Part shown: positions 601-53,303 of the stretch, one piece after another
How positions within the stretch are numbered: the first letter of the stretch is position 1
Layout: every line of letters starts with the position of its first letter
Source of the DNA: Haloprofundus halobius
Lineage (GTDB): Archaea; Halobacteriota; Halobacteria; Halobacteriales; Haloferacaceae
Length of the DNA: 64,000 nucleotides
Direction of reading: 5' to 3'
Assembly: GCF_020097835.1 (NCBI RefSeq)
Contig: NZ_CP083668.1
Coordinates: forward strand, 62,001-126,000
Notes under the pieces: generated by a model
The model's input: only the letters and a program-made list of their open reading frames with translations
Told to the model about the DNA's origin: nothing
The model's database searches: none
Program-made: the position numbers and the translations under genes

Positions 601-660
601 GGGCTTTCGCTATCGTTTGGTGATGAGTTCGCTCCGTGTGGACGGTCTTGGATTGATATC

Positions 661-713
661 GGTTGGTGATAGGTTTCTGCGGGCGTGCTGAATACAGAGC
701 GCGAGTCGGCTAC
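661..713 (+). repeat. Cassette repeat R1 (right half)
   Basis: Carries the conserved right end TGCTGAATACAGAGCGCG followed by AGTCGG, preceded by a 'GGTGATAGGTTTCTGCGGGCG' type of middle also seen in R7, R16, R20 and R22. It opens the first cassette array. The left inverted end is missing. Confidence 0.75.
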
Positions 714-792
714 TGGTCAGTAGTGGTCTGGCGAGGAATCAGATTGGTAGATACAGACAAAATATTTACCAATGCAATAGTTTCTCAAAATC

Positions 793-1356
793 ATGGATAG
801 ACGACAATTCTGCCGCGGTGCAACTACTGTTCTGGCAGTTAGTATCTCCGCAGGCTGTTCCACGACCACCAATTCTTCCCCCACCACAACGGAGTCCCCG
901 GCCAGCGAAGGAGCAGATAGAGTCACTCCGACAGCCTCTCCGACTCCCGACCACCTTCCGAACGTCCCAAAACCAACCAGTAACTGCCAGGTAAGTGAAC
1001 TACCTGACGCAACCTATCCATCTCTGCCTTCCTCGGTTTCAGAGTCAAGTGTGGTGAACTATTCACTTGAATTTGAGAAGGCGTACTCTTCGGCAACCGT
1101 GGAGAACGAGCGGGAGGTCACCTTCAGCGGCTTCGATGGATGGGATACCAAGGTCATGCAGAGGACGAAAGCAGGGTTTGTCGTCCGAGTGTGGGTGAGC
1201 TTAGACTTCACGAAGGAAGGCGGTAGCACGCCAGTCGCCGGGAGCGAGGAGTTCTACGGGTGGTATTACGTTACGGATGACTTCGCCGTTCACGCACCCG
1301 GAGATTCGTCGGACTCGATTCCTTCGGCTGGGTGGGAAACGGTCGCTTGTAAATAG
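793..1356 (+). CDS. Tat-type lipoprotein, cassette between R1 and R2
   Basis: 187 residues. N-terminus 'MDRRQFCRG' carries the Tat twin arginine, followed by a hydrophobic stretch and the lipobox SAGC at about residues 19-22, so the mature protein should be lipid-anchored outside the membrane. A Ser/Thr/Pro-rich linker (about 24-57) precedes a ~125-residue globular domain with several aromatic strands and one conserved-looking 'FYGWYYV' motif. Sole gene of its repeat-bounded unit. No known enzymatic family recognised; function unknown. Confidence 0.85.
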   Translation: MDRRQFCRGATTVLAVSISAGCSTTTNSSPTTTESPASEGADRVTPTASPTPDHLPNVPKPTSNCQVSELPDATYPSLPSSVSESSVVNYSLEFEKAYSSATVENEREVTFSGFDGWDTKVMQRTKAGFVVRVWVSLDFTKEGGSTPVAGSEEFYGWYYVTDDFAVHAPGDSSDSIPSAGWETVACK

Positions 1357-1423
1357 GCACGCTCTTCCTATCGGTCTGTTCAACTCATCCAGTATTAAAA
1401 AAGGACGCGGCTTGCTACATACA

Positions 1424-1500
1424 CCCTCTGTATCTCGCACAGTATTTCTGACTGATTCTTGGTAGTTCGTAGAGATGTTATTGAATAGAGGGCGCATGTG
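1424..1500 (+). repeat. Cassette repeat R2 (full, type B middle)
   Basis: Left end CCCTCTGTATCTCGCAC, middle of the 'TTTCTGACTGATTCTTGGTAG' type shared with R9, R10, R14 and R19, right end TTGAATAGAGGGCGC. Slightly diverged at the right end. Confidence 0.8.
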
Positions 1501-1714
1501 CATCAACTGCTCGCCCGAACGTATTTGTCGATTCATTATCCTAATCGAACTATGGCTGCCCCTGAGAACTTGCGTTCCGAAAACCAGCAATTGCTCTTCA
1601 TCAGTGGGAGTTCGGCCTTGATACCTGACTATTAGCACTGATATCGACTAAATTCACGTTTCAACAGACAATCACACTTATTGTACCGACGACCAACTTC
1701 AGAATGTAATTTCG

Positions 1715-2386
1715 ATGTTTACCCGTCGCAAGGCCCTCCAGGCTATCGGTTGCAGTGTTTTACTTACTGCCTCAGGCTGTGGCTCAAACACCTCAACTCG
1801 AGAATCTCCACCCAAAGCCACAACAGCACAGCGAATCAGCCAGACATCAGAGCCATCCCACTCAACACGATCACCGACTGCAGAGAAACCAACCCAAGAG
1901 AGCCCAACCTCTCGTACACCGACACCAACACCAACATCAGAGCCAGAGCCAGAGCCGAACTGTCCTCCTTCAACTCTCGCAACGGAGAACGGTGTCTGGA
2001 TTACACTCACGTTTGACAACACAGAAATGGACGCAGACGACCGGGAGGTGTCGATCAAGTGCAGTAAAATAATTCTTCGAGGCGGAACTGGACACAAACT
2101 TCGGACGTACAACATCGGAAGCCCTGATGAAGAGCCAAAGTTCGTTGACGGTGCTTACCTGCCAGAAGATGCTGATGGAGAGACGTATCGGTGGTTTGGA
2201 AAACAGACAACGATTCGGTTTCCGAAGTATACTAGTGACGATTTCGGCCTCTATGGTGGTATAGACGCAAAATTCGAACCAGCCTCCACACCACTGAAAA
2301 TCGGTGTCTGTACGTACCGCTCATACTTCGAACCAATAACAAAGTCTGGTTGGCAAACGGAATTCTTCGACTTTCATGGATGGTAG
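1715..2386 (+). CDS. Tat-type lipoprotein, cassette between R2 and R3
   Basis: 223 residues. 'MFTRRKALQAIG' is a Tat signal and TASGC the lipobox (about residues 18-22). A long Thr/Ser/Pro/Glu linker (about 25-85), ending in a PTPTSEPEPEP run, tethers a C-terminal domain of ~135 residues that begins 'NGVWITLTFDN' and is rich in beta-type sequence. Lone gene between two repeats. Probably a surface-exposed domain on a flexible stalk; ligand or activity unknown. Confidence 0.85.
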   Translation: MFTRRKALQAIGCSVLLTASGCGSNTSTRESPPKATTAQRISQTSEPSHSTRSPTAEKPTQESPTSRTPTPTPTSEPEPEPNCPPSTLATENGVWITLTFDNTEMDADDREVSIKCSKIILRGGTGHKLRTYNIGSPDEEPKFVDGAYLPEDADGETYRWFGKQTTIRFPKYTSDDFGLYGGIDAKFEPASTPLKIGVCTYRSYFEPITKSGWQTEFFDFHGW

Positions 2387-2397
2387 ATTTCAGTGGG

Positions 2398-2430
2398 GTG
2401 CTGAATAGAGTGCGCATGTCGGTTATCGGT
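2398..2430 (+). repeat. Cassette repeat R3 (right end only)
   Basis: GTGCTGAATAGAGTGCGC followed by ATGTCGGTTATCGG. Only the right end is present, about a dozen bases after the stop of the preceding lipoprotein gene, so the left part has been lost or was never there. Confidence 0.7.
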
Positions 2431-2504
2431 TCGGTCCGCGATGTGGGAAACTGGAACTGCTCGGTATAGAGAAAGTACTTACTCCGAATCATCTGTGTTA
2501 TCGT

Positions 2505-2666
2505 ATGGATTCGACAACCACTTCGACACCGCGTCCTCATCCTGATCCTGACCCAGCTGCGCAGTTTATCGGTGGTTTAATACGGACTGTTCAGGACGCG
2601 CTTCCATTCGTCCTCTTAGGGTTGGTACTTCTCGTTCTCGTTTGGTACTTCCTCAGAACCTCGTAG
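2505..2666 (+). CDS. 53-aa single-pass membrane protein, cassette between R3 and R4
   Basis: ATG at 2505, stop TAG at 2664-2666. A Thr/Pro-rich head (MDSTTTSTPRPHPDPDP) is followed by a short amphipathic part and one strong transmembrane helix (about residues 34-49) ending WYFLRTS. An almost identical copy lies on the minus strand at 13574-13735, together with its upstream region and left repeat arm. Conservation at protein level between two copies argues that this short frame is really translated. Function unknown. Confidence 0.8.
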   Translation: MDSTTTSTPRPHPDPDPAAQFIGGLIRTVQDALPFVLLGLVLLVLVWYFLRTS

Positions 2667-2681
2667 TTCATACGCGCTATA

Positions 2682-2822
2682 TCGCGGTTAGTCCAGCGAC
2701 GGTGAGACGGAATAAGCGAGGTTTTTGTGAGAGATGCATCCTCTGTATCTTGCACTCCGTTACTGACAGCGATTGAGGAGTTCGTTCACCGACTGCTGAA
2801 TACAGGGCGCAAATCGGTCACG
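2682..2822 (+). repeat. Cassette repeat R4 (long form, type A middle)
   Basis: Best reference copy. A ~55-base left arm (GCGGTTAGTCCAGC... GAGACGGAATAAGCGAGG) leads into the core: left end CCTCTGTATCTTGCAC, middle CTCCGTTACTGACAGC then TTGAGGAGTTCGTTCACCGAC, right end TGCTGAATACAGGGCGC and AAATCGGTCAC. CTGTAT near the left end is the reverse complement of ATACAG near the right end. Left arms of this kind recur in R9, R10 and, inverted, R13. Confidence 0.9.
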
Positions 2823-2902
2823 AGAATTCTCTTCGAATCTATCATTACAATCACCAATATAACTCAATTGCTTAAGTTATAGCTTCATAATTAACACAAA
2901 TT

Positions 2903-4027
2903 CTACTCCGGAGGATGAGGTGACATTGGCTGATCACGAATTTTATTTTGAACTATATCCCCCTTATTGAATACCTCTTTAAATTCCGTTATATGGCTTA
3001 AATCAAAGTCAACAGTGGCTAGGTGAATTGTCTCACTTTTGCCACTAATATCTTCGTATGTCAAGGTAACCCATATTCGAATCAATTCGTGTTCTTTATC
3101 AACATTTGTTAGTGCCGTTTGGAATTTATTTTTCTCGTAAATATCATCTTCACTTACATTTGGAAAATCTGGATTAAAAGTACTCACATAGTCATCAGCG
3201 AAAAATTTGGTGCTATCATTCTTGCTGGGCGCTATTCTTGTTTGACCGTCTATATCTGTTATTGGAATCTTAGGAAAGTACTCTGGTGATAGTTTTGGCA
3301 TCGATTCATCTTCTTCAACCCACTCTAAAGGTTGCATGTGCATCATCACGCTCATATTTTCAACTGCACTATTACCTAAGTTGAAAATCTCAAAATATAT
3401 TCTATTGTCATTTAGAACACCCCAGTTGTCTATTACTATCCAAGGAGCTTGCCCCGCCTCCGTCCAATTCGCTTGCGCTTCCATGATATTAACTTGCGCT
3501 TCCATGAGACGGGTTTGCTTAGTTTGAATGTCTGATTGATTAGAAAGAATTGAGCTCTGTCGAGAGTATAAATAAATAAGTGAAGCGGTTAAAACCACAG
3601 AAAAAACGCTTTCCGCACTGGACACCCATGGAGAGAGCCAAGAAATAACGAGTGAAATGAATTCTATTACGAGCGGAAAGGCTGAGTACCCAATGATAGC
3701 GATCCCAATACTGATCAACAATCTTTTCGCTATCTTCGAAGGATTTGATTGACGAGTGATGATTGGTCTCTTTTTATCATAGAAATAAATCAGGACGGCC
3801 GTTAAGGTGAATCGAAAAACGCTCACCCCAATAGAAATCCAAGGACGGACCCATGAAACAACGAATGAAATGAACCCGGTTACCAGGGGGTCGGCCAAGT
3901 ATCCTACAATAGCGATTCCAATACCGATTGACAATCTTTTTGCTACATTTGATTTTTCAATACTATCGAACCTATTCACGGATATGCGATTTATATTCTG
4001 TATGAGGTTAATAAAGTATTGAAACAT
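2903..4027 (-). CDS. Membrane protein with tandemly duplicated TM unit, cassette between R4 and R5
   Basis: 374 residues. Two clearly homologous ~68-residue units lie in tandem: about 29-97 (from 'AKRLSIGIGIAIVGY') and about 98-165 (from 'AKRLLISIGIAIIGY'), each with two membrane helices and a 'PW' after the first. A short coiled part with repeated 'MEAQ' (about 178-192) leads to a soluble C-terminal domain of ~180 residues. Codon and base use is visibly AT-richer than the plasmid genes, which fits transfer. No family recognised. Confidence 0.8.
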   Translation of the reverse strand: MFQYFINLIQNINRISVNRFDSIEKSNVAKRLSIGIGIAIVGYLADPLVTGFISFVVSWVRPWISIGVSVFRFTLTAVLIYFYDKKRPIITRQSNPSKIAKRLLISIGIAIIGYSAFPLVIEFISLVISWLSPWVSSAESVFSVVLTASLIYLYSRQSSILSNQSDIQTKQTRLMEAQVNIMEAQANWTEAGQAPWIVIDNWGVLNDNRIYFEIFNLGNSAVENMSVMMHMQPLEWVEEDESMPKLSPEYFPKIPITDIDGQTRIAPSKNDSTKFFADDYVSTFNPDFPNVSEDDIYEKNKFQTALTNVDKEHELIRIWVTLTYEDISGKSETIHLATVDFDLSHITEFKEVFNKGDIVQNKIRDQPMSPHPPE

Positions 4028-4186
4028 GACTATAAGTAGTCAAGAGGGTTGCTACACGTCTAAATTCAAGTAACTCTGAATGATATATGCAATACTCAAC
4101 AATTCGATGTTTGTCGATTGACGTAGCAATAACATCATTACATCGCAGAATGAGTAAAAAGAGTAACATACGCCTGCTGCATGCAA

Positions 4187-4269
4187 CCTCTATATCTTGC
4201 ATTCCGTTACTGACAATGGCTGAAAAGTTCGTTCACCGGCTGCTGAATACAGAGCGCGAGTCAATCACG
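4187..4269 (+). repeat. Cassette repeat R5 (full, type A)
   Basis: ACCTCTATATCTTGCA, then TTCCGTTACTGACAATGGC, then GTTCACCGGCTGCTGAATA with CAGAGCGCGAGTC. All core blocks present with a few substitutions. A CTGCTGCATGCA piece just before it looks like an extra, fused right-end fragment. Confidence 0.85.
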
Positions 4270-4306
4270 CAGATCCACTAACACGTTGGAAATAGGGGTT
4301 ATGAGA

Positions 4307-5131
4307 TTATTTCCTGCCTCCATTCCCTCGCCGAACAAGATAGTAGATGGCGTACATTGGGTAGAATGGCGAGAAGGGGAAGATAAGGTGACTGAGATAC
4401 GCAACAAAGAACTGAAGTGATGGGTTCGGATTCCACTCATTGGCGCTGCGACACAGGTAGCATGCGTCCATATAGACTGCAATCGGAAACAACGGTGAAA
4501 TCGCCACCAATGCTACAAACAGAAGGTTCCAGTCACCCGGCATGAAAAGAGGAACGAGTAGGTACGAGAGGGCGCAAACAACGACTCCAGGGATGAGTAG
4601 CCACCAGTAACGACTCGGCGCACTACTTTGAACATGTTTGTGTCGATAACCCAGATACCATACCGCACCCATTGGCGCTGTCACACTTAGCAGCACTGTT
4701 GGGGTGACTGGAGATATCAGAACCTGATTTGCGTACATAGTCATAACTGGGTGCAGTGCCGAAACTAAGGGTCCTCGAATCACTTCAAGAAGTGTCCCAC
4801 CAGCGATTGTCAAAAGGAAAGATCCAACGGCTAATCGGACGGGATGTGGATTCCAATTCAGATCACGCGATTTGAGAGTAGATGCATCAGCGTACACCAA
4901 TCCAGGGACAACAAATGCACTAATCCAGGTTGCACCACCTGCGAGGAACAACCCGATTACCGTTACTGCAAGGCCACTTTGAGTAGTGGGTAAACGAATG
5001 AATTGTGTTATCGCAGCACCAATTCCGCCAGCAGTAGTTGCTAGGATGAGTATCCACTTCAAGAGCCGTGCAGACTTCTCGTTTGCCTTCTCTTTAGATG
5101 GATGTGTTCTGTTTACCACTGAGTTCGACAT
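4307..5131 (-). CDS. Seven-helix membrane protein, cassette between R5 and R6
   Basis: 274 residues, about seven hydrophobic segments. Two internal motifs mirror each other: 'YADASTLKSRDLNWNPHP' (about 80-97) and 'YMDACYLCRSANEWNPNP' (about 217-234), so the protein looks like a duplicated unit with D...W-N-P-x-P before each hydrophobic hairpin. That motif occurs in haloarchaeal membrane proteins of unknown role. Sole gene of its cassette, ending about 38 bases inside the R5 boundary. Confidence 0.85.
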   Translation of the reverse strand: MSNSVVNRTHPSKEKANEKSARLLKWILILATTAGGIGAAITQFIRLPTTQSGLAVTVIGLFLAGGATWISAFVVPGLVYADASTLKSRDLNWNPHPVRLAVGSFLLTIAGGTLLEVIRGPLVSALHPVMTMYANQVLISPVTPTVLLSVTAPMGAVWYLGYRHKHVQSSAPSRYWWLLIPGVVVCALSYLLVPLFMPGDWNLLFVALVAISPLFPIAVYMDACYLCRSANEWNPNPSLQFFVAYLSHLIFPFSPFYPMYAIYYLVRRGNGGRK

Positions 5132-5238
5132 ATCGGATACTAACGAATAGTAGACATTGTTATAGACTGACTACTCAACCGAATCTGGATAAAACCGCAA
5201 AATACCCCCATCCAGAATCGAAGACCGTTTGCGGACTA

Positions 5239-5324
5239 TACCCTCTGTATCTCGCACTCCGTTATTGCCAGCCGTTGAGGAGTTCGCTCATCGACTGCTG
5301 AATACAGTGCGCGAGTCGGTTACG
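5239..5324 (+). repeat. Cassette repeat R6 (full, type A)
   Basis: CCCTCTGTATCTCGCAC, CTCCGTTATTGCCAGCCG, TTGAGGAGTTCGCTCATCG, TGCTGAATACAGTGCGCG, AGTCGGTTACG. Very close to R21, which borders the second copy of the adjoining cassette at 51 kb. Confidence 0.9.
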
Positions 5325-5376
5325 CGGTTTACCCAACTACGATGCCACGTACCGAGAATATCTACCTCTCACCAGA

Positions 5377-5799
5377 TTACCTGCGTCCAATCTGGCGGCG
5401 AAGCAACTCCCCGCCCACGTACCCGATACAGCCGAATAGCCACCCCCACGAGACGATTAGGAAATCGAGGTCAAAGAGAAAACCCAATCGCTCAGAGACC
5501 GTGAACCCTTGGTATAAGAAGAACACTTCGACAAGTCCAGTGGAGAAAAACACGAAACAGGAACTGGCAAGACCCAGAATGAATCCGCGACGGAGGTACG
5601 CGATTGCACCGGACAATATTATTGCAATTAGTGTCGCGACGAGCGGGGGGCTCGGGCCTCCCCACGAGACGAACGAAGCAGAGCCGAAGATGCCTGTTAG
5701 ATAACCGATTGCGACGACGAATGAGACGGCGAGAGACCCGACTATTGATGTCCTCAAGTCCACTTCGTTACTTCCAAAAAGAACTTCGGCCCAGTACAT
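5377..5799 (-). CDS. Four-helix membrane protein, cassette between R6 and R7 (copy 1)
   Basis: 140 residues with four hydrophobic helices (about 20-40, 53-70, 75-97, 110-132). The stretch 'SASFVSWGGPSPPLVATLIA' is identical in the 143-residue protein encoded at 51160-51591; the rest differs by scattered substitutions. Flanking DNA on both sides, including the repeats, is also homologous, so the whole cassette exists twice in this window. Function unknown. Confidence 0.85.
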   Translation of the reverse strand: MYWAEVLFGSNEVDLRTSIVGSLAVSFVVAIGYLTGIFGSASFVSWGGPSPPLVATLIAIILSGAIAYLRRGFILGLASSCFVFFSTGLVEVFFLYQGFTVSERLGFLFDLDFLIVSWGWLFGCIGYVGGELLRRQIGRR

Positions 5800-5895
5800 C
5801 CTAAGCCACGACTTCGCAACCTGTATTTGTAGGTTTTCTGTCTAAGACTCGGCGTACTACGAATACCCACCGAGTGGGTGTTTCGTCGTTGATTG

Positions 5896-5992
5896 CCTGC
5901 TGAACTCACCCTCTGAGTGTTGCACACCACTTCTGACAGCATTCGGTGAGGTTTCTGCGGTCGTGATGAATAGAGGGCGCGTATCGGTCACT
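5896..5992 (+). repeat. Cassette repeat R7 (full, type C middle)
   Basis: CTGCTGAACTCACCCTCTG opens it, followed by AGTGTTGCACACCACTTCTG, a GTGAGGTTTCTGCGG middle and right end TGATGAATAGAGGGCGCG, TATCGGTCAC. The left edge looks like a right-end fragment (CTGCTGAAC) fused to a left end, as in R11. Confidence 0.8.
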
Positions 5993-6087
5993 GAGATTGT
6001 TTCGGGTCACTTCTTCTCTCGTTGTTTCAGTGATTCTAACCGAAAGCGTAACAATCGTCACGAGAACGTATGAAACTCCATACAGAG

Positions 6088-6702
6088 TTATCCGCAACTT
6101 CCGCCACCAGTGATAGACCCAGAGTTCTCTGAAAGTTCTACTTGTACTTCTCGAAGCGTCGATTGAGATTCTGAGGATGACTTTGATGGCGGACATTGGG
6201 TTGTTGAGACTGCGACGACCGGCGTTCCTGATTTGGTACTACTCACGACAGTCATTACTGTCACATTTGTGCGTTCAACCGGCACTGGAAGTGTAACAGT
6301 AGAGTCTGCAACTAAGTATGCCGACCACCGAGCAACAGGTGTGCTATTCGTCGGCTGTATCTCAGTGACGTTATGTGCCCCACCATAAATATACTCGAAT
6401 GTCGAGTCAATCGGTCTCGTGAGTACCGTTCCATTGCTGAGTGTGAAGTTCACCTCTGAAACCGGCCCATTGATGACCTGAACACTCACCAGATAATCTG
6501 TTGACCGATTATTTACGATAGATATTTCTTGAGAATTGGTCGTGGATTGAGTGGGCGTCTTCTGTGGGACATCAAGTACTTGAGTAGTTGTTTCTCCTGG
6601 CGTTGAGACGTCGTTCTCGCTGGGTACAGTATTGCACCCAGCTGTGATGACGAGCAATACTATCAAGATGAGTGAGTGATGTGTGGAGGTTCGCGAGTTC
6701 AT
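6088..6702 (-). CDS. Lipoprotein, cassette between R7 and R8
   Basis: 204 residues. Sec-type signal with lipobox ITAGC at about residues 19-23 ('LLVITAGCNTVPS'). A Thr/Pro/Gln linker (about 28-57) is followed by a beta-rich domain that starts 'QEISIVNNRSTDYLVSVQV', which resembles Ig-like or carbohydrate-binding folds, and a Ser-rich tail ending GGGSCG. Sole gene of its unit. No specific function can be given. Confidence 0.85.
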   Translation of the reverse strand: MNSRTSTHHSLILIVLLVITAGCNTVPSENDVSTPGETTTQVLDVPQKTPTQSTTNSQEISIVNNRSTDYLVSVQVINGPVSEVNFTLSNGTVLTRPIDSTFEYIYGGAHNVTEIQPTNSTPVARWSAYLVADSTVTLPVPVERTNVTVMTVVSSTKSGTPVVAVSTTQCPPSKSSSESQSTLREVQVELSENSGSITGGGSCG

Positions 6703-6736
6703 TTCTAAAATGAAAATGTAGATATTGATAAATGTA

Positions 6737-6819
6737 CCCTCTGTAACTCGCAGCCCGTTACTGACAGCAGTTGAGATGTTCGCTCATCGACTGCTGAATA
6801 CACAGCGCGTATCGGTCAG
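6737..6819 (+). repeat. Cassette repeat R8 (full, type A)
   Basis: CCCTCTGTAACTCGCAG, CCCGTTACTGACAGCAG, TTGAGATGTTCGCTCATCG, TGCTGAATACACAGCGCG, TATCGGTCAG. All blocks present. Confidence 0.88.
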
Positions 6820-6898
6820 CGGTTCCGCGCTCGACGTGACCGAACTGAATCGTTCAGTACAGAGAAGGTATTTAGCGTATCCCCTGAACCTTCGAGAT

Positions 6899-7105
6899 AT
6901 GCCTAATGCGTCCCTTGTCCGTTTTGTCGGTACGGTCTTAGTCGCGCTCATCATTGCGTTTAATCTCGCGGCTATTTTCGGGCCTCCCGATCCGTTCTCA
7001 CAACTTCGTATAGCAGGAATCGCGCTGATAATCGTGGCACCGCTTGCTTACGCTCTCATCTACAGACGAGGATACAAATCTATCTTGAAACAAGTGAATC
7101 GATAA
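6899..7105 (+). CDS. Small two-helix membrane protein, cassette between R8 and R9
   Basis: 68 residues from ATG 6899; an upstream in-frame start would run through repeat R8 and is unlikely. Two hydrophobic helices (about 8-26 and 37-54), a short loop with 'FGPPDPF', and a basic tail YRRGYKSILKQVNR. Sole gene between two repeats. Function unknown. Confidence 0.75.
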   Translation: MPNASLVRFVGTVLVALIIAFNLAAIFGPPDPFSQLRIAGIALIIVAPLAYALIYRRGYKSILKQVNR

Positions 7106-7121
7106 CAAGCACACCTACTTA

Positions 7122-7260
7122 GCGGTTAGTTCAGCACCGGTGAGACGAAATAAACGAGGTCTCCGTGAGAGATGCACTCTCTGTATGCAGCGCGGTGTTT
7201 CTGACAGAACCTCGGTAGCTCGCAGAGGTTCTGCTGAATACAGGGCGCGTATCGGTTATC
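7122..7260 (+). repeat. Cassette repeat R9 (long form, type B)
   Basis: Long left arm (GCGGTTAGTTCAGC, GAGACGAAATAAACGAGG), then CTCTCTGTATGCAGCGC, GTGTTTCTGACAGAACCTCGG, and TGCTGAATACAGGGCGCG, TATCGG. Its left end reads TGTATGCAGC, making the two ends an even better inverted pair than in type A. Confidence 0.88.
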
Positions 7261-7321
7261 GGCTCGGCAATCAATATGGGCAAATCGAATCGCTACGTAC
7301 AGGGTTTATCAGAAACGGTTT

Positions 7322-7522
7322 ATGAAGAAGTCTCGAATAGAGGGTATGGAGTTGAGCCCCCTCCAAGAAGTGAAAAAGCTCGTTCTTGCGTTTAAACGAT
7401 GGGTTTTAGTAATTATTCTTCTCATTCTTGCAACTCTTTTTCTACCTCTCCCAGAATCTCCATTTCTCCTTGGGGGGGCACTCGCCATCATCTTATGGCT
7501 ACTCAAAAGATACCTCTCATAG
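7322..7522 (+). CDS. Small two-helix membrane protein, cassette between R9 and R10
   Basis: 66 residues. A short charged head (MKKSRIEGMELSPLQEVKK) precedes two hydrophobic helices (about 25-42 and 46-62). The internal ATG at 7346 (MELSPLQ) is an alternative start. Sole gene of a 290-bp cassette, one of the smallest in the array. Confidence 0.7.
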   Translation: MKKSRIEGMELSPLQEVKKLVLAFKRWVLVIILLILATLFLPLPESPFLLGGALAIILWLLKRYLS

Positions 7523-7547
7523 AGTGGTATCTTCGCACACCTACTGA

Positions 7548-7675
7548 GCGGTTAGTTCAGCGTCGGAGAGATGGAATAAACGAGGCCACTGTGAGAGATA
7601 CATCCTCTGTATCTCGCACGGTGTTTCTGACTGAACCTTGGTAGTTCGCAGAGATGCTGCTGAATACAAGGCGCT
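7548..7675 (+). repeat. Cassette repeat R10 (long form, type B)
   Basis: Shares with R9 a stretch reaching further left (CACACCTACTGAGCGGTTAG), then GAGATGGAATAAACGAGG, CATCCTCTGTATCTCGCAC, GGTGTTTCTGACTGAACC, and TGCTGAATACAAGGCGC. R9 and R10 flank a tiny cassette and are nearly direct repeats of each other. Confidence 0.88.
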
Positions 7676-7697
7676 TTTCTTGCACGCGACATGTGGG

Positions 7698-8042
7698 TCA
7701 GCTTGTCGCTTTTCGGCTGTGTTTTCGACTTATCTTGTGCCGGAGGAGGGCGAACAACAGAATGAGTATGCTTACTACCTCAGCCCCGATAGCCGGGAGA
7801 ACTCGCCAGAGGGGAGTGGGTAGTCCAAACCCGGCTCTCGGATACATGACTGCGTGAAAGTAGCCGAAGCGAAGGAGCGTCATGAACAAGAGCGCGGTTA
7901 CGCCGACTAACGCGAACGCTGTCACGAGCGTCTGAAGCGATTTATTGAGAGTGTTGTTACGAGTCCACACCAGCCAAATTGACGAGCCTGTAATTGCAAT
8001 TCCGGCGAGTATGAAGTCTGGTGTTGCAGATGGAGGAACCAT
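7698..8042 (-). CDS. Three-helix membrane protein, cassette between R10 and R11
   Basis: 114 residues, three hydrophobic helices (about 10-26, 36-59, 83-104) and a very basic tail (RHKISRKHSRKATS). The stop lies about 20 bases from R10. No family recognised; consistent with the other cassettes it is predicted to be in the cytoplasmic membrane. Confidence 0.75.
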   Translation of the reverse strand: MVPPSATPDFILAGIAITGSSIWLVWTRNNTLNKSLQTLVTAFALVGVTALLFMTLLRFGYFHAVMYPRAGFGLPTPLWRVLPAIGAEVVSILILLFALLRHKISRKHSRKATS

Positions 8043-8106
8043 ATCGTAAAGAGTGACTGGCGTTCGTTATTGACCTTTGGAAAGCTGAGAGAAAGTTACC
8101 ACCTCC

Positions 8107-8200
8107 GTGCTGAACTCACCCTCTGTATCTTGCAGTCCGTTACTGACAGTGGTTGAGGAGGTCGCTTATCGAGTGCTGAATACAGCGCGCAAATGCGTCA
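8107..8200 (+). repeat. Cassette repeat R11 (full, type A)
   Basis: CGTGCTGAACTCACCCTCTG, TATCTTGCAGTCCGTTACTG, ACAGTGGTTGAGGAGG, AGTGCTGAATACAGCGCGC, AAATGCGTCA. The next cassette gene (minus strand) ends exactly in this right end: its stop codon is the TCA at 8198-8200. Confidence 0.88.
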
Positions 8201-8368
8201 TTCAGATTGATACTGCCGATACTCTTTGAAAAGCACGAGAGCGCCTAAGAGACTACCAAAGAGAAGAACAAACGAGACTCCTGAAAATGGCTCCTGCTTA
8301 GCAGCTAAGCCAAAAGGTATCCCCGTTAGGAGGGCCGCAACGATCAACCTCGTCTTCTCGGAGACCAT
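8198..8368 (-). CDS. Small two-helix membrane protein, last cassette of array 1
   Basis: 56 residues from ATG 8368; a longer frame from 8446 adds a basic, unlikely N-terminus reaching into R12. Two hydrophobic helices (about 6-20 and 30-46) and tail FKEYRQYQSE. The stop codon overlaps the end of repeat R11. Confidence 0.6.
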   Translation of the reverse strand: MVSEKTRLIVAALLTGIPFGLAAKQEPFSGVSFVLLFGSLLGALVLFKEYRQYQSE

Positions 8369-8439
8369 ATTCTGGACATGTCTCTGGCTCTGAAGAATAT
8401 GCTTCTTTCGTCGCCTCATCCGAGCAAAATGCGTTACTG

Positions 8440-8490
8440 AGTTCACCCTCTATATTCAGCACGCACTTCTTGTCAGAACCTAAGAATTTA
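8440..8490 (+). repeat. Cassette repeat R12 (left part)
   Basis: TTCACCCTCTATATTCAGCAC, CACTTCTTGTCAGAACCTAAG. Right end missing. It closes the first array; 20 bases further on begins the oligo-T/hairpin leader of the TFB gene. Confidence 0.7.
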
Positions 8491-8508
8491 GACGAGACCG
8501 CACGGCTG

Positions 8509-13418: not shown

Positions 13419-13483
13419 CATCGACCCACGGCTCAAGAAGCGAGCAGCTAGCGGTCCATTTCTCCAAATAATGACAGAAATTG

Positions 13484-13569
13484 TGTGCTGCATACAGAGG
13501 ATGCATCTCTCAGAGAAATCTCGCTTATTCCGTCTCATCGACGCTGGACTAATTGCGATATAGCGCGTA
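13484..13569 (-). repeat. Cassette repeat R13 (inverted, left arm)
   Basis: Reverse complement of the R4 left arm and left end: GTGCTGCATACAGAGGATGC, CTCGCTTATTCCGTCTCA, TGGACTAATTGCGATATAGC. It opens the inverted array next to the second copy of the 53-aa cassette. Confidence 0.85.
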
Positions 13570-13573
13570 CGAA

Positions 13574-13735
13574 CTATGAGGTTCTGAGGAAGTACCAAAC
13601 GAGAACGAGAAGAACCAACCCTAAGAGGACGAATGGAAGTGCGTCCTGAATAATCCGTATTAAACTACCGACAAACTGTGCAGCTGGGTCGGGATCAGGA
13701 TGGGGACGCGGTGTCGAAGTGGTTGTCGAATCCAT
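13574..13735 (-). CDS. 53-aa single-pass membrane protein, inverted copy
   Basis: Minus strand, ATG at 13735, TAG at 13574-13576. It differs from the protein at 2505-2666 by only a handful of residues (for example GSLIRIIQ against GGLIRTVQ). The ~70 bases before the start and the repeat arm after the stop are also conserved, so the duplicated unit is the whole cassette. Confidence 0.8.
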   Translation of the reverse strand: MDSTTTSTPRPHPDPDPAAQFVGSLIRIIQDALPFVLLGLVLLVLVWYFLRTS

Positions 13736-13813
13736 ACGATGACATAGATGATTCGGAGTAAGTACTTTCTCTCTACCGAGCAGTTCGAGTCCCCCAGATG
13801 ATAATTAACCAGT

Positions 13814-13894
13814 AGCCGATACGCGCCCTGTATGCAGCAACACCTCTGCAAACTACCAAGCTTCGGTCAGAAACTCTGTGCGAGATACAAAGGT
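13814..13894 (-). repeat. Cassette repeat R14 (inverted, full, type B)
   Basis: Reads CCGATACGCGCCCTGTATG, CAGCAACACCTCTGC, CTACCAAGCTTCGGTCAG, GTGCGAGATACAAAGG; the reverse complement has all type B blocks. Confidence 0.85.
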
Positions 13895-13958
13895 TGTCTT
13901 CAGTAATAAACTACATGACTGAGAGGTCACGTTCCACGTCACCATCTATCCAAACATC

Positions 13959-14042
13959 ATGAACCGAAAAAAGTCCTCAAATAACTCGGGCCCTTGGCGG
14001 TGTGTCGTATCTTGCTGGCTGTAGTAACGTTGATGCGTTTCA
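13959..14042 (+). pseudogene. Broken lipoprotein signal peptide
   Basis: ATG 13959 starts 'MNRKK', and after two frame shifts the sequence reads 'GVSYLAGCSNVDAF', a perfect lipobox LAGC. Then the frame runs into the convergent lipoprotein gene. It looks like the 5' end of a Tat/Sec lipoprotein gene whose body was lost when the neighbouring gene was placed here. Confidence 0.5.
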
Positions 14043-14846
14043 GTCATCTGCTGTCTGTTCGCTTTGATTTTTGGACCTCTCCACCCACTCAGGCCGACTA
14101 ACTTTCGTTATTCCGAGATCCGTGATTCGCATCCGTTCTGTTACGTGAAGCATCATTCCACCTCGCTCGGTCTCGTATTGTAACTCGTACGACCGAACAA
14201 TCCCGGTATAGTCGATGTGAGCAGTGAAACTGACGTTTTGCAGTTTTTCACCATTGACGGACAGTTGCTGTGTCGAGGCCTCCAGTCGGTGAACTGAGTC
14301 GTCGATCGTTTCCGGTGCTACTGTGGCATTCAGAAGTCTGAAGAGAGTATAAAGGCGTTTTGAGTGCGTACCGTTCTGTACAAGCACTACGCGGTCACTT
14401 TGGCGATAGGTATAATGAACCTCTCCATCGTCCGATTTGCTGTATGTGGCAAGTTCAGAGGTCTTCGGGTCATACCAAATGAAGCTTCGTTTTGGCGAGT
14501 TTGTCACGTTCTTAGGGCCTTTCGACCGTTCTTCAGCGAGTTTTGGCCCACGGTTAACCATCACACGGGTGACGAGGGTCGTGTTCGCGACGACGGTTCC
14601 GTTCTCGGCTCTAAAGACCTGCGTCTGCGTCGATGTACGCGCCTGAGACGACACCGTTTTGCGATGCGTCTGGATGAGTGCCTTCGCGTTGATGACGCCA
14701 TCGCTCGTTAGACCAGGGGCGAGCCAACGTGGATCGCTTGTATGATCCTCACGCGGTTGCCTCTGTGAGAAGTCGTTAAGCAGGCCCCCACACCCCGAGA
14801 GGAGGACTAGTGCGACCACTGCAAGCAAAGCAGCCTTGGAGGGCAT
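14040..14846 (-). CDS. DUF7537-like lipoprotein, cassette between R14 and R15
   Basis: 268 residues. Signal with lipobox LLSGC at about 15-19 ('VALVLLSGCGGLL'). The mature part follows the pattern I know from haloarchaeal DUF7537 lipoproteins: an initial helix 'DGVINAKALIQTHRKTVSSQ', strands with 'TVVANTTLVTRVMV', 'RSFIWYDPKTSELATYSK', and a membrane-distal part near 'IDYTGIVRSYELQYE'. Surface-anchored; function unknown. Confidence 0.8.
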   Translation of the reverse strand: MPSKAALLAVVALVLLSGCGGLLNDFSQRQPREDHTSDPRWLAPGLTSDGVINAKALIQTHRKTVSSQARTSTQTQVFRAENGTVVANTTLVTRVMVNRGPKLAEERSKGPKNVTNSPKRSFIWYDPKTSELATYSKSDDGEVHYTYRQSDRVVLVQNGTHSKRLYTLFRLLNATVAPETIDDSVHRLEASTQQLSVNGEKLQNVSFTAHIDYTGIVRSYELQYETERGGMMLHVTERMRITDLGITKVSRPEWVERSKNQSEQTADD

Positions 14847-15008
14847 AGATGAAACGTTCGGGGGAGGAAATATTAATTTACTGTGACTTCTGATTCTCAG
14901 AGTCTACAGTTCGCTCACTTAGGCTCAATTGGTGGTGAAATTATTTGGGTTGGTCCCCTCATCACTCTCCCCGCTACTATCACCTATGGACTTGCCCGTC
15001 GCTTGTAG

Positions 15009-15090
15009 TAACCGATACGCGCTCTGTATTCAGCAGTCGGTAAACGAAACCTCTCGACTGCTGTCAGTAACGGAGTGCAAGATACAGAGT
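15009..15090 (-). repeat. Cassette repeat R15 (inverted, full, type A)
   Basis: ACCGATACGCGCTCTGTATT, CAGCAGTCGG, CTCTCGACTGCTGTCAGTAA, CGGAGTGCAAGATACAGAG. The inner TACTGACAGCAG block identifies it as type A. Confidence 0.88.
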
Positions 15091-15152
15091 ATCTATCCAT
15101 CGACCGATTCTCGTTCGAAACGGACCGACAAGAAGGCGTGTAAAGGTTTTAG

Positions 15153-15428
15153 TTATTCTCCGTTCCTCCGTTCTCGCTCCTTTTCTAATCTCTCAATTTT
15201 CGGTCTAAGTCGAAACATCACCACGAGAAAGACCGGCAATCCGACTAGCATAGTACCCATATAGGAAACCGCAACAATTTGAGCTAACCTTCCAGGGTCA
15301 TCGTGTTCGGCTTTTCTTGCAGCGGCATATACACCAGCCGCAGACAGTAACGCTGCGGGAAGCGAGAATGCAAACAGCATCCCTAATAAACTATATTGGA
15401 TGCTCTGAGCAAGCGCAAGAAGCGTCAT
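15153..15428 (-). CDS. Small two-helix membrane protein, cassette between R15 and R16
   Basis: 91 residues; hydrophobic helices at about 8-34 and 49-71, followed by a charged tail (RLRPKIERLEKERERRNGE) that should be cytoplasmic and helical. Sole gene of its cassette. Function unknown. Confidence 0.75.
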   Translation of the reverse strand: MTLLALAQSIQYSLLGMLFAFSLPAALLSAAGVYAAARKAEHDDPGRLAQIVAVSYMGTMLVGLPVFLVVMFRLRPKIERLEKERERRNGE

Positions 15429-15511
15429 TGCTCATTTCCTACCCCTCCTACGTTTATAAGTTCGGGAGTTTTGCTGAACTATTTCATTCGTTCATACTAA
15501 CCGCCGACCGA

Positions 15512-15582
15512 GTGACCGATACGCGCATTGTATGCAGCACGGCTCCTGAAACCTATCACCGATTGAGGATTTCAACAGAACT
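15512..15582 (-). repeat. Cassette repeat R16 (inverted, right half)
   Basis: TGACCGATACGCGCATTGTA, TGCAGCACGG, CTGAAACCTATCACCGATTG. Same type as R1 and R20; followed by GATTTCAACAGA, which resembles the end of an IS5-like element also seen near 27240. Confidence 0.75.
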
Positions 15583-25697: not shown

Positions 25698-25768
25698 CGA
25701 TTCGCACAACCTCTGGAGCATCGATTACAGTCGGCTCCATTGGAATTTTCAGAATCTGATAGAAACGG

Positions 25769-25797
25769 CGTGCTGAATAGAGAGAATGTATTCAGCA
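25769..25797. repeat. Cassette repeat R17 (fused ends)
   Basis: GTGCTGAATA, GAGAGAATG, TATTCAGCA: only the two outer ends facing each other with a few bases between. It marks the left edge of the third cassette group. Confidence 0.65.
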
Positions 25798-25902
25798 AAA
25801 GGGTGTCATTCGTTTCACTCCCTTAGTGGTGGAACAACCGTTAGGTAGGTCTGCGGACTTCATGACCACAAAGATTATTCTAAATGTCACTTATCTCCGA
25901 GT

Positions 25903-26064
25903 ATGCCCACAACGGGGTTCCTTCTCTTCTGGGTGCCAATTGCGTTCGTATTCATCGTCGTTGCTTCGTTCACGGGCACTATACTTGCTCTCCAAGTCTA
26001 CTATGGCAACAGAACTCTGTCTCTCACAGAATTTACGAAGCGATTCAACAACGACAGGAGATAA
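25903..26064 (+). CDS. 53-aa single-pass membrane protein, cassette between R17 and R18
   Basis: ATG 25903, TAA 26062-26064. A transmembrane helix starts almost at the N-terminus (about 5-30, 'FVFIVVASFTGTILAL'), followed by a basic cytoplasmic part 'EFTKRFNNDRR'. Not homologous to the other 53-residue cassette protein apart from size. Short, so moderate confidence. Confidence 0.6.
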   Translation: MPTTGFLLFWVPIAFVFIVVASFTGTILALQVYYGNRTLSLTEFTKRFNNDRR

Positions 26065-26115
26065 TTACATTTTCTACACTGAGCTATTCAGGTAGCATGC
26101 ATCAAGTGCCGAGCC

Positions 26116-26148
26116 AGTGACCGAGACGCGCACTGTATGTAACACCGA
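26116..26148 (-). repeat. Cassette repeat R18 (inverted, right end)
   Basis: GTGACCGAGACGCGCACTGT, ATGTAACACC. Right end only, 15 bases before R19, so two right ends lie in tandem. Confidence 0.7.
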
Positions 26149-26163
26149 GGTCGAAAAAGCTGC

Positions 26164-26247
26164 GTGACCGACTCGCGCACTCTATTCAGCAGCACCTCTA
26201 CGAACTGCCAAGGTTCAATCAGAAACACCATGCGAGATACAGAGGGT
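26164..26247 (-). repeat. Cassette repeat R19 (inverted, full, type B)
   Basis: GTGACCGACTCGCGCACTCT, ATTCAGCAGCACC, TGCCAAGGTTCAATCAGAAA, CATGCGAGATACAGAGGG. All type B blocks present. Confidence 0.88.
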
Positions 26248-26383
26248 GTAATCAGCACGATAACGCCTTTCTATTTAGTGAACTAATTTCTGTCTGTCGA
26301 GTATAGCGCGCTGAAAACGGAGTATCTATCCAGGAACGGGCTGCTCTGTCAAGAGAGCATCTCGTCTCTCATTGGGAATTGAT

Positions 26384-26893
26384 ATGGGGCTTTATTATTT
26401 TGCCAGTGAAATCAGTGGTATGACGCTTGATGTAGAGGTTCCGGAATCACCGGACCTCTCGAACCGAGGGATGCCACGCGAGTTTGAGTGGCAGGAAGAA
26501 ACGCTCGGATCAGAGGACTTCTACCGCGAGGATATCGAAGATCTACTTCAGGAGGGTGCGTGGAAGGAGGGATTCAACGAGTGGACCGAGTACACGAATC
26601 TCGACGAAGAGCAGGTCCAAATCGTCAGCGACCTTGGCCTGTTCCAGGCGTTCGACTTCTACTGGGACCCAACCGAAGATCGTCTTCGCTTCGATGCCCC
26701 GACGATTCCGGACGACTGGCGGGAGCAAGACGCGACCGAATCACTCGATTCGAGTGCGGTTTCGATGATTGATGCCGCGTTAGATGATCTCGGCCGAGCT
26801 ATGCAGGAGGTACTGGAGAACTACCTTGAACGGAACGACGAAGCGTCCGATTATGGTTGGGGTGAGGAGACCTACGGAAAACGCGGAGAGTGA
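26384..26893 (+). CDS. Acidic soluble protein, cassette between R19 and R20
   Basis: 169 residues from ATG 26384 (a TTG four codons earlier is possible). Acidic, aromatic-rich: 'GLYYFASEISGMTLDVEVP', 'WKEGFNEWTEYTNLDEEQ', 'GLFQAFDFYWDPTEDRLRF'. A C-terminal helix 'IDAALDDLGRAMQEVLENYL'. No signal peptide or membrane helix; it is the one cassette gene here that does not look like an envelope protein. Function unknown. Confidence 0.78.
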   Translation: MGLYYFASEISGMTLDVEVPESPDLSNRGMPREFEWQEETLGSEDFYREDIEDLLQEGAWKEGFNEWTEYTNLDEEQVQIVSDLGLFQAFDFYWDPTEDRLRFDAPTIPDDWREQDATESLDSSAVSMIDAALDDLGRAMQEVLENYLERNDEASDYGWGEETYGKRGE

Positions 26894-27318
26894 CCCCAGT
26901 GTGGTTTCTCGCTGCCGCGACCCATAGATACCAATAGAAGCCACGTTTGACGCGCATGATTGCACGATTGAGGTCCATCTCGGGAATCGGCGCAGCTGGC
27001 GAAGAAAAACGAAAGTCTCCTTCTCTCTACTGAGTGGTATGTCATCTGTGTCTCCACTTCGTCCCCTCATAGCAGGACAATTGCTCGGTAACCGATACGC
27101 GATGTGTATTCAACACGCTCGCTGAAACCTATCACCGACTGAGGATTTCACCAAGGCCAATCATCTTTATCTGACAATATCTTTCTGTGCGAGAAAGCCT
27201 ATAACTGGAGATCAACAACGCCGGTGTATGTCTAGTTGGCTCTGTTGAAATCCTCTACTTTAGACATTCAAACACGCGAAACAACTGCTCATCTACGTGC
27301 GTATTGAGCAGATGTTGA
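26894..27318. other. Intergenic region with R20 and an IS5-like end
   Basis: No intact gene. Holds repeat R20 (27088-27150) and, at about 27238, GGCTCTGTTGAAATCCTC, which resembles terminal sequences of IS5-type haloarchaeal elements; a matching GATTTCAACAGA lies beside R16. Confidence 0.5.
27088..27150 (-). repeat. Cassette repeat R20 (inverted, right half)
   Basis: GTAACCGATACGCGATGTGT, ATTCAACACG, CTGAAACCTATCACCGACTG. Same type as R1 and R16. Closes the third cassette group. Confidence 0.75.
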
Positions 27319-35311: not shown

Positions 35312-35353
35312 GCCCAAGTGGATTGCTGTAGAGAAGCAATCAGTTTGAATTGC

Positions 35354-36005: not shown

Positions 36006-36135
36006 ACCACTCAACGGACGGCCACTCAGCCATTGGCAAAAATACGTCGCCCAGAAACGCGACTGGGAATTCATGGGTCAACTCGCCCACACTGGACTCA
36101 AGATCGATGCTCAACAGAAAGAGGCCCAGGCGTGA
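36006..36135 (+). pseudogene. 5'-truncated copy of the 34808 gene (copy 2)
   Basis: Reads 'PLNGRPLSHWQKYVAQKR', 'WEFMGQLAHTGLKIDAQQKE', 'AQA' after an in-frame TAA. The 5' half and structured leader are missing; a junction with unrelated DNA lies near 35990. Confidence 0.75.
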
Positions 36136-37607: not shown

Positions 37608-38939
37608 ATGCTGTCTCGATTACGTCATCCGCTCGCTGCTGTTAGCGTTGCACTGCTCCTCACTGTCCCCTGGATTGGATTCTTCATCACATACGGTGGA
37701 TATGGAACCGTCCATCCAGGCGAGAACATCACACCAATTACGGCAGTCTTGGTCGCTGGGCTTGCAATTCTCGGGGCAGCATTTCTCCTTGCATGGGCAG
37801 CAGAAACAGCTGAGAAAGACGTCCCGCAAGCGTTTGCGATTGCGGTCCTTGCAGTGCTAGCGGTCGCGCCGGAATACGCTGTCGACGCACTCTACGCGTG
37901 GGAGGCAGGCACTGGGTCCACTCAGGCTGCCAATCTCGCAGTGGCTAACATGACGGGCGCAAACCGGATCCTTATCGGCCTTGGGTGGTCCGGCATTGCC
38001 CTGTTTACGATTTACCGTGCAAAGCGCACTGCAGACCCAGCAGTTGAGCAACGTTCCGGATTTCTTGCAGATGCGGTCACACTCGACCGCGGGATTTCCA
38101 CCGAGATTACATTCTTACTTGTGGCTACCGTGTTTGCGTTTTTCGTCCCATTCAATGGCGGTATTGGACCGATTGACACGGTCTTGCTCGTCGGACTCTT
38201 CCTCCTGTATCTCCTCGTCGTCATCCGTGGTGATGTCGATGAATCAGAGGAACACGTTGGCGTTCCCGCTTACTTCCAACAATACCCGAAGGCCCAGCGA
38301 ATAGCAGTTATCCTCTTCGGATTCGCGTTCTCAGGTGCGATAATATTCACTGCGGTTCACCCCTTTGCCGAGGGACTCGAACAACTAGGACTCCAGTACG
38401 GTATCCCCGAGTTCTTCATGATTCAGTGGCTCGCACCACTCGCCAGTGAGAGCCCCGAACTCATTGTCGTTGCCTATCTTGTGAATAAATCTCGGTCGAC
38501 GGCGGGATTCAACGCGCTCATCTCCTCGAAATTGAACCAGTGGACGTTGCTCATCGGAACACTTGCGGTGGTATATTCGATCTCAGCAGGGGCTATTGGA
38601 ACGCTTCCGTTCGATTCGAAGCAAGCAGCCGAAATCTGGATTACCGCAGCGCAGAGCTTCTTCGCAATTGCGATTCTCACGAACTTCGAGATTAGTACTC
38701 GTGAGGCAATCGCCCTGCTCGTCCTATTTGCTACACAGGTCCTCGCGGAATTCTATGTAATTCAGACCGTAACTGAACCGGCCGCAACAAACGTGAGCAT
38801 GCTCATACTCTACATCTACACAGCAGTTTATGTCGCACTTGGCGTCGGACTGTTCCTGAGACGACGTGAAAGCGTCCAAGGGCTCATCAAGCGTACCGTC
38901 TCGAATACGCGCTCAGCAATAGGGGCTAGTTCGAAGTAG
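37608..38939 (+). CDS. Na+/Ca2+ exchanger-like cation antiporter
   Basis: 443 residues from ATG 37608 (a GTG six codons earlier is possible). About eleven membrane helices. Two alpha-repeat signatures: 'LAVAPEYAVDALYAWEAG' with 'ANLAVANMTGANRILIGLGW', and 'LASESPELIVVAYLVNKS' with 'GFNALISSKLNQWTLLIGTL'; the paired P-E motifs are the cation-binding sites of the CaCA superfamily. Exports Ca2+ (or exchanges other cations) against Na+ or H+. A 255-base fragment of it is duplicated at 53049. Confidence 0.85.
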   Translation: MLSRLRHPLAAVSVALLLTVPWIGFFITYGGYGTVHPGENITPITAVLVAGLAILGAAFLLAWAAETAEKDVPQAFAIAVLAVLAVAPEYAVDALYAWEAGTGSTQAANLAVANMTGANRILIGLGWSGIALFTIYRAKRTADPAVEQRSGFLADAVTLDRGISTEITFLLVATVFAFFVPFNGGIGPIDTVLLVGLFLLYLLVVIRGDVDESEEHVGVPAYFQQYPKAQRIAVILFGFAFSGAIIFTAVHPFAEGLEQLGLQYGIPEFFMIQWLAPLASESPELIVVAYLVNKSRSTAGFNALISSKLNQWTLLIGTLAVVYSISAGAIGTLPFDSKQAAEIWITAAQSFFAIAILTNFEISTREAIALLVLFATQVLAEFYVIQTVTEPAATNVSMLILYIYTAVYVALGVGLFLRRRESVQGLIKRTVSNTRSAIGASSK

Positions 38940-50988: not shown

Positions 50989-51039
50989 TTAGTGAATGCC
51001 ATCTGTTTAACTGTATGTGTATCTAAGATGACGGCTACA

Positions 51040-51121
51040 CCCTCTGTATCTTGCACTCCGTTACTGACAGTTGTCGAGAGGTTCGCTCACCAACTGCTGA
51101 ATACAGCGCGCGAATCGGTCA
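51040..51121 (+). repeat. Cassette repeat R21 (full, type A)
   Basis: CCCTCTGTATCTTGCAC, CTCCGTTACTGACAGTTG, GAGGTTCGCTCACCAAC, TGCTGAATACAGCGCGCG, AATCGGTC. Closest relative is R6, which stands in the same place relative to the homologous cassette. Confidence 0.9.
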
Positions 51122-51159
51122 AGTGGTCTCCTGATTACGATACCCTCTACGAGGCCTAC

Positions 51160-51591
51160 CTAACCCGATTCCTCATCTCCAACCCTACGGCGGAGCAATT
51201 CTCCACCCACGCACCCGATACAGCCGAATACACACCCCCATGAGATAATTAGGAACTCGAGGTCGTGGAGAAAACCCAGCCGCTCTGAGAAGGTGAATCC
51301 TCGGTAGATGAAGAAAACTTCCACAATCCCCGTTGAGAGGAACACGAAACAAGAACTGGCACCCCCCAGAATGAATCCTCGACGGACGTATGCGATTGCA
51401 CCGGACGATATTATTGCGATGAGTGTCGCAACGAGTGGTGGACTCGGGCCACCCCACGAGACGAACGAAGCCGAGCCAAAGACGCCTGTCAGATACCCGA
51501 TTGCGACAACAAGTGAAGCAGCAAGAGACCCGAGTATCGGTGTCCTCCACTCGCCCTCGCTACTCCCGAAAAGGACTTCGGCCCAGTCCAT
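51160..51591 (-). CDS. Four-helix membrane protein, cassette between R21 and R22 (copy 2)
   Basis: 143 residues, homologous over its whole length to 5377-5799. Differences concentrate at both ends (MDWAEVLFGSSEGEWRTPIL; tail RRRVGDEESG). DNA outside the frame is also alignable, for example CTGTATTTGTAGGTTTTCTG against CTGTAATTGTAGGCTTTCTG. Preservation of the frame in both copies indicates selection on the protein. Confidence 0.85.
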   Translation of the reverse strand: MDWAEVLFGSSEGEWRTPILGSLAASLVVAIGYLTGVFGSASFVSWGGPSPPLVATLIAIISSGAIAYVRRGFILGGASSCFVFLSTGIVEVFFIYRGFTFSERLGFLHDLEFLIISWGCVFGCIGCVGGELLRRRVGDEESG

Positions 51592-51688
51592 GCTCTGCTC
51601 AGATGCCGGAACCTGTAATTGTAGGCTTTCTGTCTGAGACAGTGAGTACTTCGCGGGAGTTTAGACAGGGCTGTTTCGATAGTAGCCG

Positions 51689-51760
51689 CCTGCTGAATAC
51701 ATCCTCTGTATGCAGCACGCGACTTCTGATAGAATCTAGGTAGGTTTCTGCGGGCATGAG
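51689..51760 (+). repeat. Cassette repeat R22 (fused ends plus type C middle)
   Basis: TGCTGAATACATCCTCTGT, ATGCAGCACGCGACTTCTG, ATAGAATCTAGGTAGG, TTTCTGCGGGC. TGCTGAATACA and TGTATGCAGCA face each other around CCTC, that is, a right end fused to a left end. Confidence 0.75.
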
Positions 51761-53012: not shown

Positions 53013-53040
53013 TGCTGAACAGATCCTCTGGATGCAGCAC
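53013..53040. repeat. Cassette repeat R23 (fused ends)
   Basis: TGCTGAACAGATCC, TC, TGGATGCAGCA: a right end fused to a left end, nearly perfectly palindromic. The duplicated exchanger fragment begins nine bases later. Confidence 0.65.
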
Positions 53041-53048
53041 ACAGATCC

Positions 53049-53303
53049 AACGCGCTCGTCTCCTCGAAATTGAACCAGTGGACGTTGCTCATCGGAACAC
53101 TTGCGGTGGTATATTCGATCTCAGCAGGGGCCAGTGGAACACTCCCCTTCGATTCGAAGCAAGCAGCCGAAATCTGGATTACCGCAGCGCAGAGCTTCTT
53201 CGCAATTGCGATTCTCACGAGCTTCGAGATTAGTACTCAGGAGGCAATCGCTCTGCTCGTACTGTTTACCACACAAATCCTCGCGGAGTTTTACCTGAAT
53301 TGA
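53049..53303 (+). pseudogene. Duplicated 3' fragment of the exchanger gene
   Basis: 255 bases homologous to 38511-38765 with only scattered changes; it encodes 'SKLNQWTLLIGTLAVVYSIS' and 'LLVLFTTQILAEFYLN' before TGA. It lacks the first three quarters of the protein and the final helix. High identity means the duplication is recent relative to other repeats. Confidence 0.85.

Follow-up and report, generated by a model that had tools for sequence, protein, structure and literature searches.

Probable exchange of haloarchaeal gene cassettes by a tyrosine recombinase within IS5-type platforms

Haloarchaeal genomes carry arrays of gene cassettes, and tyrosine recombination within IS5-type platforms is the likely means by which the cassettes are exchanged. 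In the scheme that we favour, a cassette would usually consist of one gene with an L dyad on its left and an R dyad on its right, and a tyrosine recombinase would join L with L and R with R. Joining of L with R would be barred by spacer mismatch, so cassettes would not be inverted. A unit of core plus cassette would be excised as a circle and then inserted at other sites, and the IS5-type shell would additionally let units and arrays transpose. We infer the enzyme, the L x L / R x R rule, the circles and present-day activity from sequence comparison. The analysis centres on one cassette at 51 kb of the window, the whole 64,000-nucleotide stretch of DNA that was analysed (C3:62001-126000 of the 3.95-Mb genome of a Haloprofundus host).

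The 51-kb cassette, its bounding sites and its relatives

The focal cassette, its homolog at 5.2 kb and their bounding sites are as follows.

51108..51704, + strand: focal cassette, spacer to spacer from left dyad to right dyad, delimited by dyad positions and identity curves; its gene is on the - strand
51160..51591, - strand: gene for a 143-aa hydrophobic protein with about four hydrophobic segments
51029..51121, + strand: full compound site on the left of the focal cassette (right dyad 51029-51055, core, left dyad 51095-51121)
51691..51758, + strand: truncated site on the right of the focal cassette (right dyad 51691-51717 and left part of the core, without left dyad)
5309..5911, + strand: homologous cassette in array 1, with a gene at 5377-5799 on the - strand (140 aa)
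5230..5322, + strand: full site on the left of the 5.2-kb cassette (dyads 5230-5256 and 5296-5322)
5898..5990, + strand: full site on the right of the 5.2-kb cassette (dyads 5898-5924 and 5964-5990)

The similarity of the bounding repeats is far beyond chance. Scanning the window with a repeat model recovered full sites with E values of 1e-20 to 1e-26, and a blast search with the left repeat of the focal cassette found a dozen more copies in the genome. The 143-aa protein had no match in a PHROG comparison. Beyond the cassette, an isolated right-dyad remnant lies at 53013..53046 (+ strand); it is adjoined by 53044-53293, one of two copies (92% identity) of a 250-bp segment found also at 38506-38755.

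The repeat of about 93 bp is compound: a right dyad (R) at its left end and a left dyad (L) at its right end enclose a core of some 39 bp. Each dyad is 27 bp long, with 10-bp inverted arms of the TGCTGAATAC/GTATTCAGCA type around a 7-bp spacer; R reads TGCTGAATAC-AYCCTCT-GTATTCAGCA and L reads TGCTGAATAC-AGNGCGC-GTATCGGTCA. This geometry was constant in 238 R and 231 L sites and the spacers were class-specific. The cores fall into several recurrent types with matched halves, and clear hybrids were rare (2 of 101). In each of the hybrid sites L068:8375 and L077:9819, the left part belongs to one core type and the right part to a different one, and the switch falls at the core centre. Of five full sites folded as single strands and compared with shuffles, one folded well (z -3.6) and four had z between -1.2 and +0.8; the case for a hairpin reading of the compound site is weak.

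The original prediction held that the cassette at 51 kb recurs at 5.2 kb with repeats at both ends and with different neighbours. Pairwise alignment agreed, giving 77% identity over 737 bp (51035-51759 versus 5236-5966, E 2e-154, blast), and the flanking cassettes of the two copies proved non-homologous. The left sites of both copies (51029-51121 and 5230-5322) are full, 93 bp long and of one core type, which is why the alignment extends further left, whereas the right sites are unlike, full at 5898-5990 and truncated at 51691-51758. The breakpoints do lie within the repeats, as had been proposed, but not at their edges, the unit ending inside the 27-bp dyads at about 51108 and about 51704. 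With breakpoints at repeats and unrelated neighbours, the segment can be taken as the discrete mobile cassette that had been proposed, and the view that cassettes moved repeatedly gained from 18 homologous cassette pairs at an identity of at least 85%.

The claim that the cassette had been duplicated was not supported by comparison with other genomes, in which we found relatives in Haloferax prahovense, Salinigranum salinum and Halomicroarcula. The 5.2-kb copy shares 90-92% DNA identity with the Haloferax, Salinigranum and Halomicroarcula cassettes, compared with 77% with the 51-kb copy. Its homology to Haloferax begins in the left dyad at about 5296 and stops at about 5950, in the core of the site that follows. 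In the coding sequence it is 93.6% identical to the Haloferax prahovense cassette (dN 0.04, dS 0.15, NG86) and 81% identical to the 51-kb copy (dN 0.11, dS 0.65, dN/dS about 0.17, NG86). Judged by these distances, the 51-kb and 5.2-kb copies are not a local duplication. Since the 5.2-kb copy is nearer to Haloferax prahovense than to its companion in the window, the two are probably divergent alleles under purifying selection that were acquired separately.

Arrays and their IS5-type outer ends

Arrays run from a START half (right part of a core plus L) through full sites to an END half (R plus left part of a core). Arrays 1 to 3 lie in the window.

641..8498, + strand: array 1, with START half 668-712, END half 8435-8496, full sites between them and generally one gene per interval
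13443..15582, - strand: array 2, starting with an inverted-repeat tip at 15582, with full sites at 15101 and 13903 and END half at 13512
25733..27158, - strand: array 3, with tips at 27158 and 25733 and a single full site at 26257-26165

Depending on the threshold, the repeat-model search found 57 to 85 site matches in the host genome and 19 to 68 in four congeners. At least one match was present in 49 of the 60 genomes searched, and named plasmids with matches came from about a dozen haloarchaeal genera. We collected 185 units, mostly with one gene, whose interior had a median length of 705 bp; genes faced both ways relative to the sites (92 versus 83). Pfam matches in 127 unit proteins included HTH_10/BAT and DUF7344 regulators, hydrolases, methyltransferases, TrkH and Usp. 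Around the arrays, the same flank (acgagaccgcacggctgtttttctgcccctgaagggtgagggg) follows two array ends on different replicons, at window 8496-8540, where it adjoins a TFB-like gene, and in L078 near 12740. A 28-bp hairpin-like repeat (CCCCTGAAGGGTGNGGGG) has seven intergenic copies within window 8507-24737, and at window 34951-36322 neighbouring segments repeat at about 79% identity with a spacing of 1025 bp.

Many START and END halves carry GGCTCTGTTGAAA-type inverted repeats on their outer side. Target duplications of 8 bp with at most two mismatches flanked 7 of about 15 single units (chance 0.0043 per unit), and a perfect 8-bp duplication flanked 16 of 30 tip-bounded elements in relatives. 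For unit L099 the target site was empty in all four congeners, with one 8-bp copy (one mismatch) in G001. The tip GGCTCTGTTGAAA was found in 70 of 118 haloarchaeal genomes, and a reversed-tip control gave zero matches in the 118. These tips bound miniature elements of 125 bp, passenger-only units, and IS5-family elements that encode a 273-aa transposase and in some cases also passengers; in the autonomous elements the transposase matches NF033579 with E 4e-64. The two marks of IS5 membership, terminal inverted repeats and a duplication of fixed length, were thus found in single units and some arrays and not in the cassette alone. On the evidence of their tips and 8-bp duplications, single units and some whole arrays also move as transposons.

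Among relatives, L184, L185, L187, L189, L190 and L191 are IS5-family elements with the 273-aa transposase (truncated in L185) and unrelated passenger genes between GGCTCTGTTGAAA tips, and several of them have perfect 8-bp target duplications. L168-L172 are miniature elements of 124-125 bp with the same GGCTCTGTTGAAA tips, and four of the five have perfect 8-bp duplications. Three other candidates were set aside. The IS6 family had been suggested as the mover by the tip GGCTCTGTTGAAA and the 8-bp duplications. It was rejected because an IS6 transposase is missing from the host genome, the ends of haloarchaeal IS6 elements are different, and one such element has itself inserted into an end tip; it lies at L125:1190-1960 (G006), where it interrupts the tip of a cassette array and has duplicated AACAGAGC. 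A 43-bp empty attachment site built from both tips had no exact match in 40 genomes. An IS5-type transposase within an array at C3:58171 has ends that differ from the GGCTCTGTTGAAA tips.

Position of the crossover and candidate recombinase

To locate the breakpoints, identity was calculated for each position around the dyads of 18 homologous cassette pairs (85-97% identical), with 2000 unrelated pairs as the baseline. In the R dyad, identity exceeded the baseline across the outer arm and into the beginning of the spacer, and was at baseline past position 11-12. In the L dyad, it stayed at baseline before position 14-17, up to the end of the spacer, and then rose in the inner arm. Core identity beside homologous cassettes equalled that of unrelated pairs. 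Because identity reaches the baseline inside the dyad spacers, these curves place the crossover in the 7-bp spacers of the R and L dyads; four positions are nearly invariant within each spacer class, and the crossover is resolvable no finer than the spacer. All 23 matched cassette pairs were the same way round and none was a full-length inverted pair; opposite-strand matches between cassettes were two, partial, at 71-74%. Homologous cassettes adjoined interchangeable modules, either various core types or transposon-tip modules. As read from these comparisons, spacer breakpoints and fixed orientation are what is expected from a tyrosine recombinase acting at L x L and R x R. Breaks at the core centre occur in the two hybrid sites, at the integrase insertion and at half-site ends; the hybrid cores in particular point to a second crossover position, beyond the simple L/R model.

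The arrays could instead be tandem, gene-carrying, non-autonomous IS5-type elements in which the transposase moves every unit without a site-specific recombinase. The single units with IS5-type tips and 8-bp duplications, and the autonomous relatives that share these tips and carry passenger genes, speak for such elements. We nevertheless regard this explanation as unlikely, together with its account of the 93-bp repeats as fused and eroded element ends produced by palindrome deletion where ends abut, although the END and START halves do match the two element ends. It predicts that each unit keeps its own END as far as the fusion point in the core, whereas homology is lost at the dyad spacer; the cores of homologous cassettes are exchanged and belong to recurrent types with matched halves; and searches of the host genome recovered no transposase that goes with these tips. 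Ordinary homologous recombination between dispersed repeats of 60-90 bp, with the dyads merely the best conserved part, seems still less probable. Same-type full sites are indeed numerous and very similar over about 60 bp, but crossovers would then be expected all through the core, where identity is that of unrelated pairs and clear hybrids make up just 2 of 101. The spacer breakpoints, as mapped, disagree with homologous recombination in the core.

For site-specific exchange by a tyrosine recombinase, the best candidate enzyme would be a 234-aa integrase, with the chromosomal Xer-like recombinase, whose conserved gene is present, as the alternative. Cassette genes were rejected as recombinase carriers, the 25 commonest Pfam families in the 127 unit proteins including no transposase or integrase, yet the integrase was located in the core position instead: its gene in the host genome (C2:80535-81236) splits a compound site. 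In five genomes the END half abuts the 3' end of the gene and the START half lies about 20-30 bp before its start, and the integrase is flanked by a short repeat, which in G004 reads GTTTGAGGAGTTTC / GTTGGGAGTATCG. A site adjoins the 3' end in 12 of 19 close homologs and in 0 of 11 distant ones. In 20 homologs R65, K124, R184 and W207 are invariant and H181 and Y216 are conserved in at least 90%, so the family retains the catalytic R, K, H, R, W and Y of tyrosine recombinases. Its NCBIfam matches were sub-cutoff ones of XerA/XerC/XerD type only, with no integron-integrase model of NCBIfam matched above threshold. In the host copy Y replaces the catalytic H, and the integrase is absent from the congeners G001, G002 and G003, all of which carry sites (about 68 in G002). 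The host integrase may therefore be inactive, or not the enzyme. Given the three site-bearing congeners, the action of the integrase may be transient, or the work may fall to a different recombinase, for instance the Xer-like protein.

Comparison with known cassette systems

Single-gene cassette arrays, diverse cargo and an integrase gene beside a site would also fit a genuine integron, or a CALIN, that has attC sites and an IntI integrase. This is very improbable: none of the 168 full sites contains the RYYYAAC...GTTRRRY box pair (chance expectation 0.3), and the integrase has no above-threshold NCBIfam integron-integrase match. Integron membership was rejected on these two grounds; strand folding of five full sites was mostly no better than that of shuffles. 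Like integrons, the system forms arrays of mobile gene cassettes (185 units, with homologous cassettes in different contexts), mostly of single genes, with an integrase gene beside a site and wide horizontal spread (PMC9668308). Unlike integrons, it has no attC boxes, convincing hairpin or IntI; each cassette has two double-strand dyads, and gene orientation is random (92 to 83). The text of the archaeal integron paper does not mention haloarchaea (PMC9668308).

Acinetobacter dif (p-dif) modules hold genes between 27-28-bp dyad sites with two 10-11-bp arms and a short spacer (PMC6449649; Blackwell and Hall 2017 as cited there). Both systems place genes between short dyads, conserve the inner arm bases most and shuffle modules among replicons (PMC6449649). 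The haloarchaeal sites differ in geometry (10-7-10 rather than 11-6-11), with a spacer of 7 bp and not 6 bp and arms of unrelated sequence, so that the two work alike while the site is not the same. Further differences are the two spacer classes that bound every haloarchaeal cassette, the fusion of sites through a compound core, the presence of an integrase gene within some of the sites, the IS5-type outer ends and the archaeal host. Mobile insertion cassettes and transporter IS have IS ends and a passenger gene, no transposase, and a target duplication; the haloarchaeal units differ in being concatenated in numbers and exchanged at internal dyads. In archaeal XerA/dif, a tyrosine recombinase acts on a dyad with 11-bp arms and a 6-bp spacer, and dif is single-copy, whereas haloarchaeal cassette dyads occur by dozens per genome (PMC2958812, PMC8371274).

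The system works like integrons and Acinetobacter dif modules, yet by attC boxes and integrase family it is not an integron. The recurrence of cassette genes at other places and in other species, with breaks that lie within the two-part site, suggests a shuffling of cassettes analogous to that of bacterial integrons and built of different parts. A literature search, with subscription papers mostly outside its reach, found no account of such a system in haloarchaea. Our judgement is evenly balanced on whether this is a third natural cassette-capture system besides integrons and dif modules, native to haloarchaea, with non-interchangeable L and R dyads, a removable core able to hold the integrase gene and an IS5-type shell that moves units and arrays. 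Haloarchaea are noted for gene exchange across genera. The cassette system would provide a concrete, sequence-defined vehicle for this exchange, present in most haloarchaeal genomes examined and loaded with membrane proteins, lipoproteins, regulators and small enzymes, and it would offer an independent origin of cassette shuffling for comparison with integrons.
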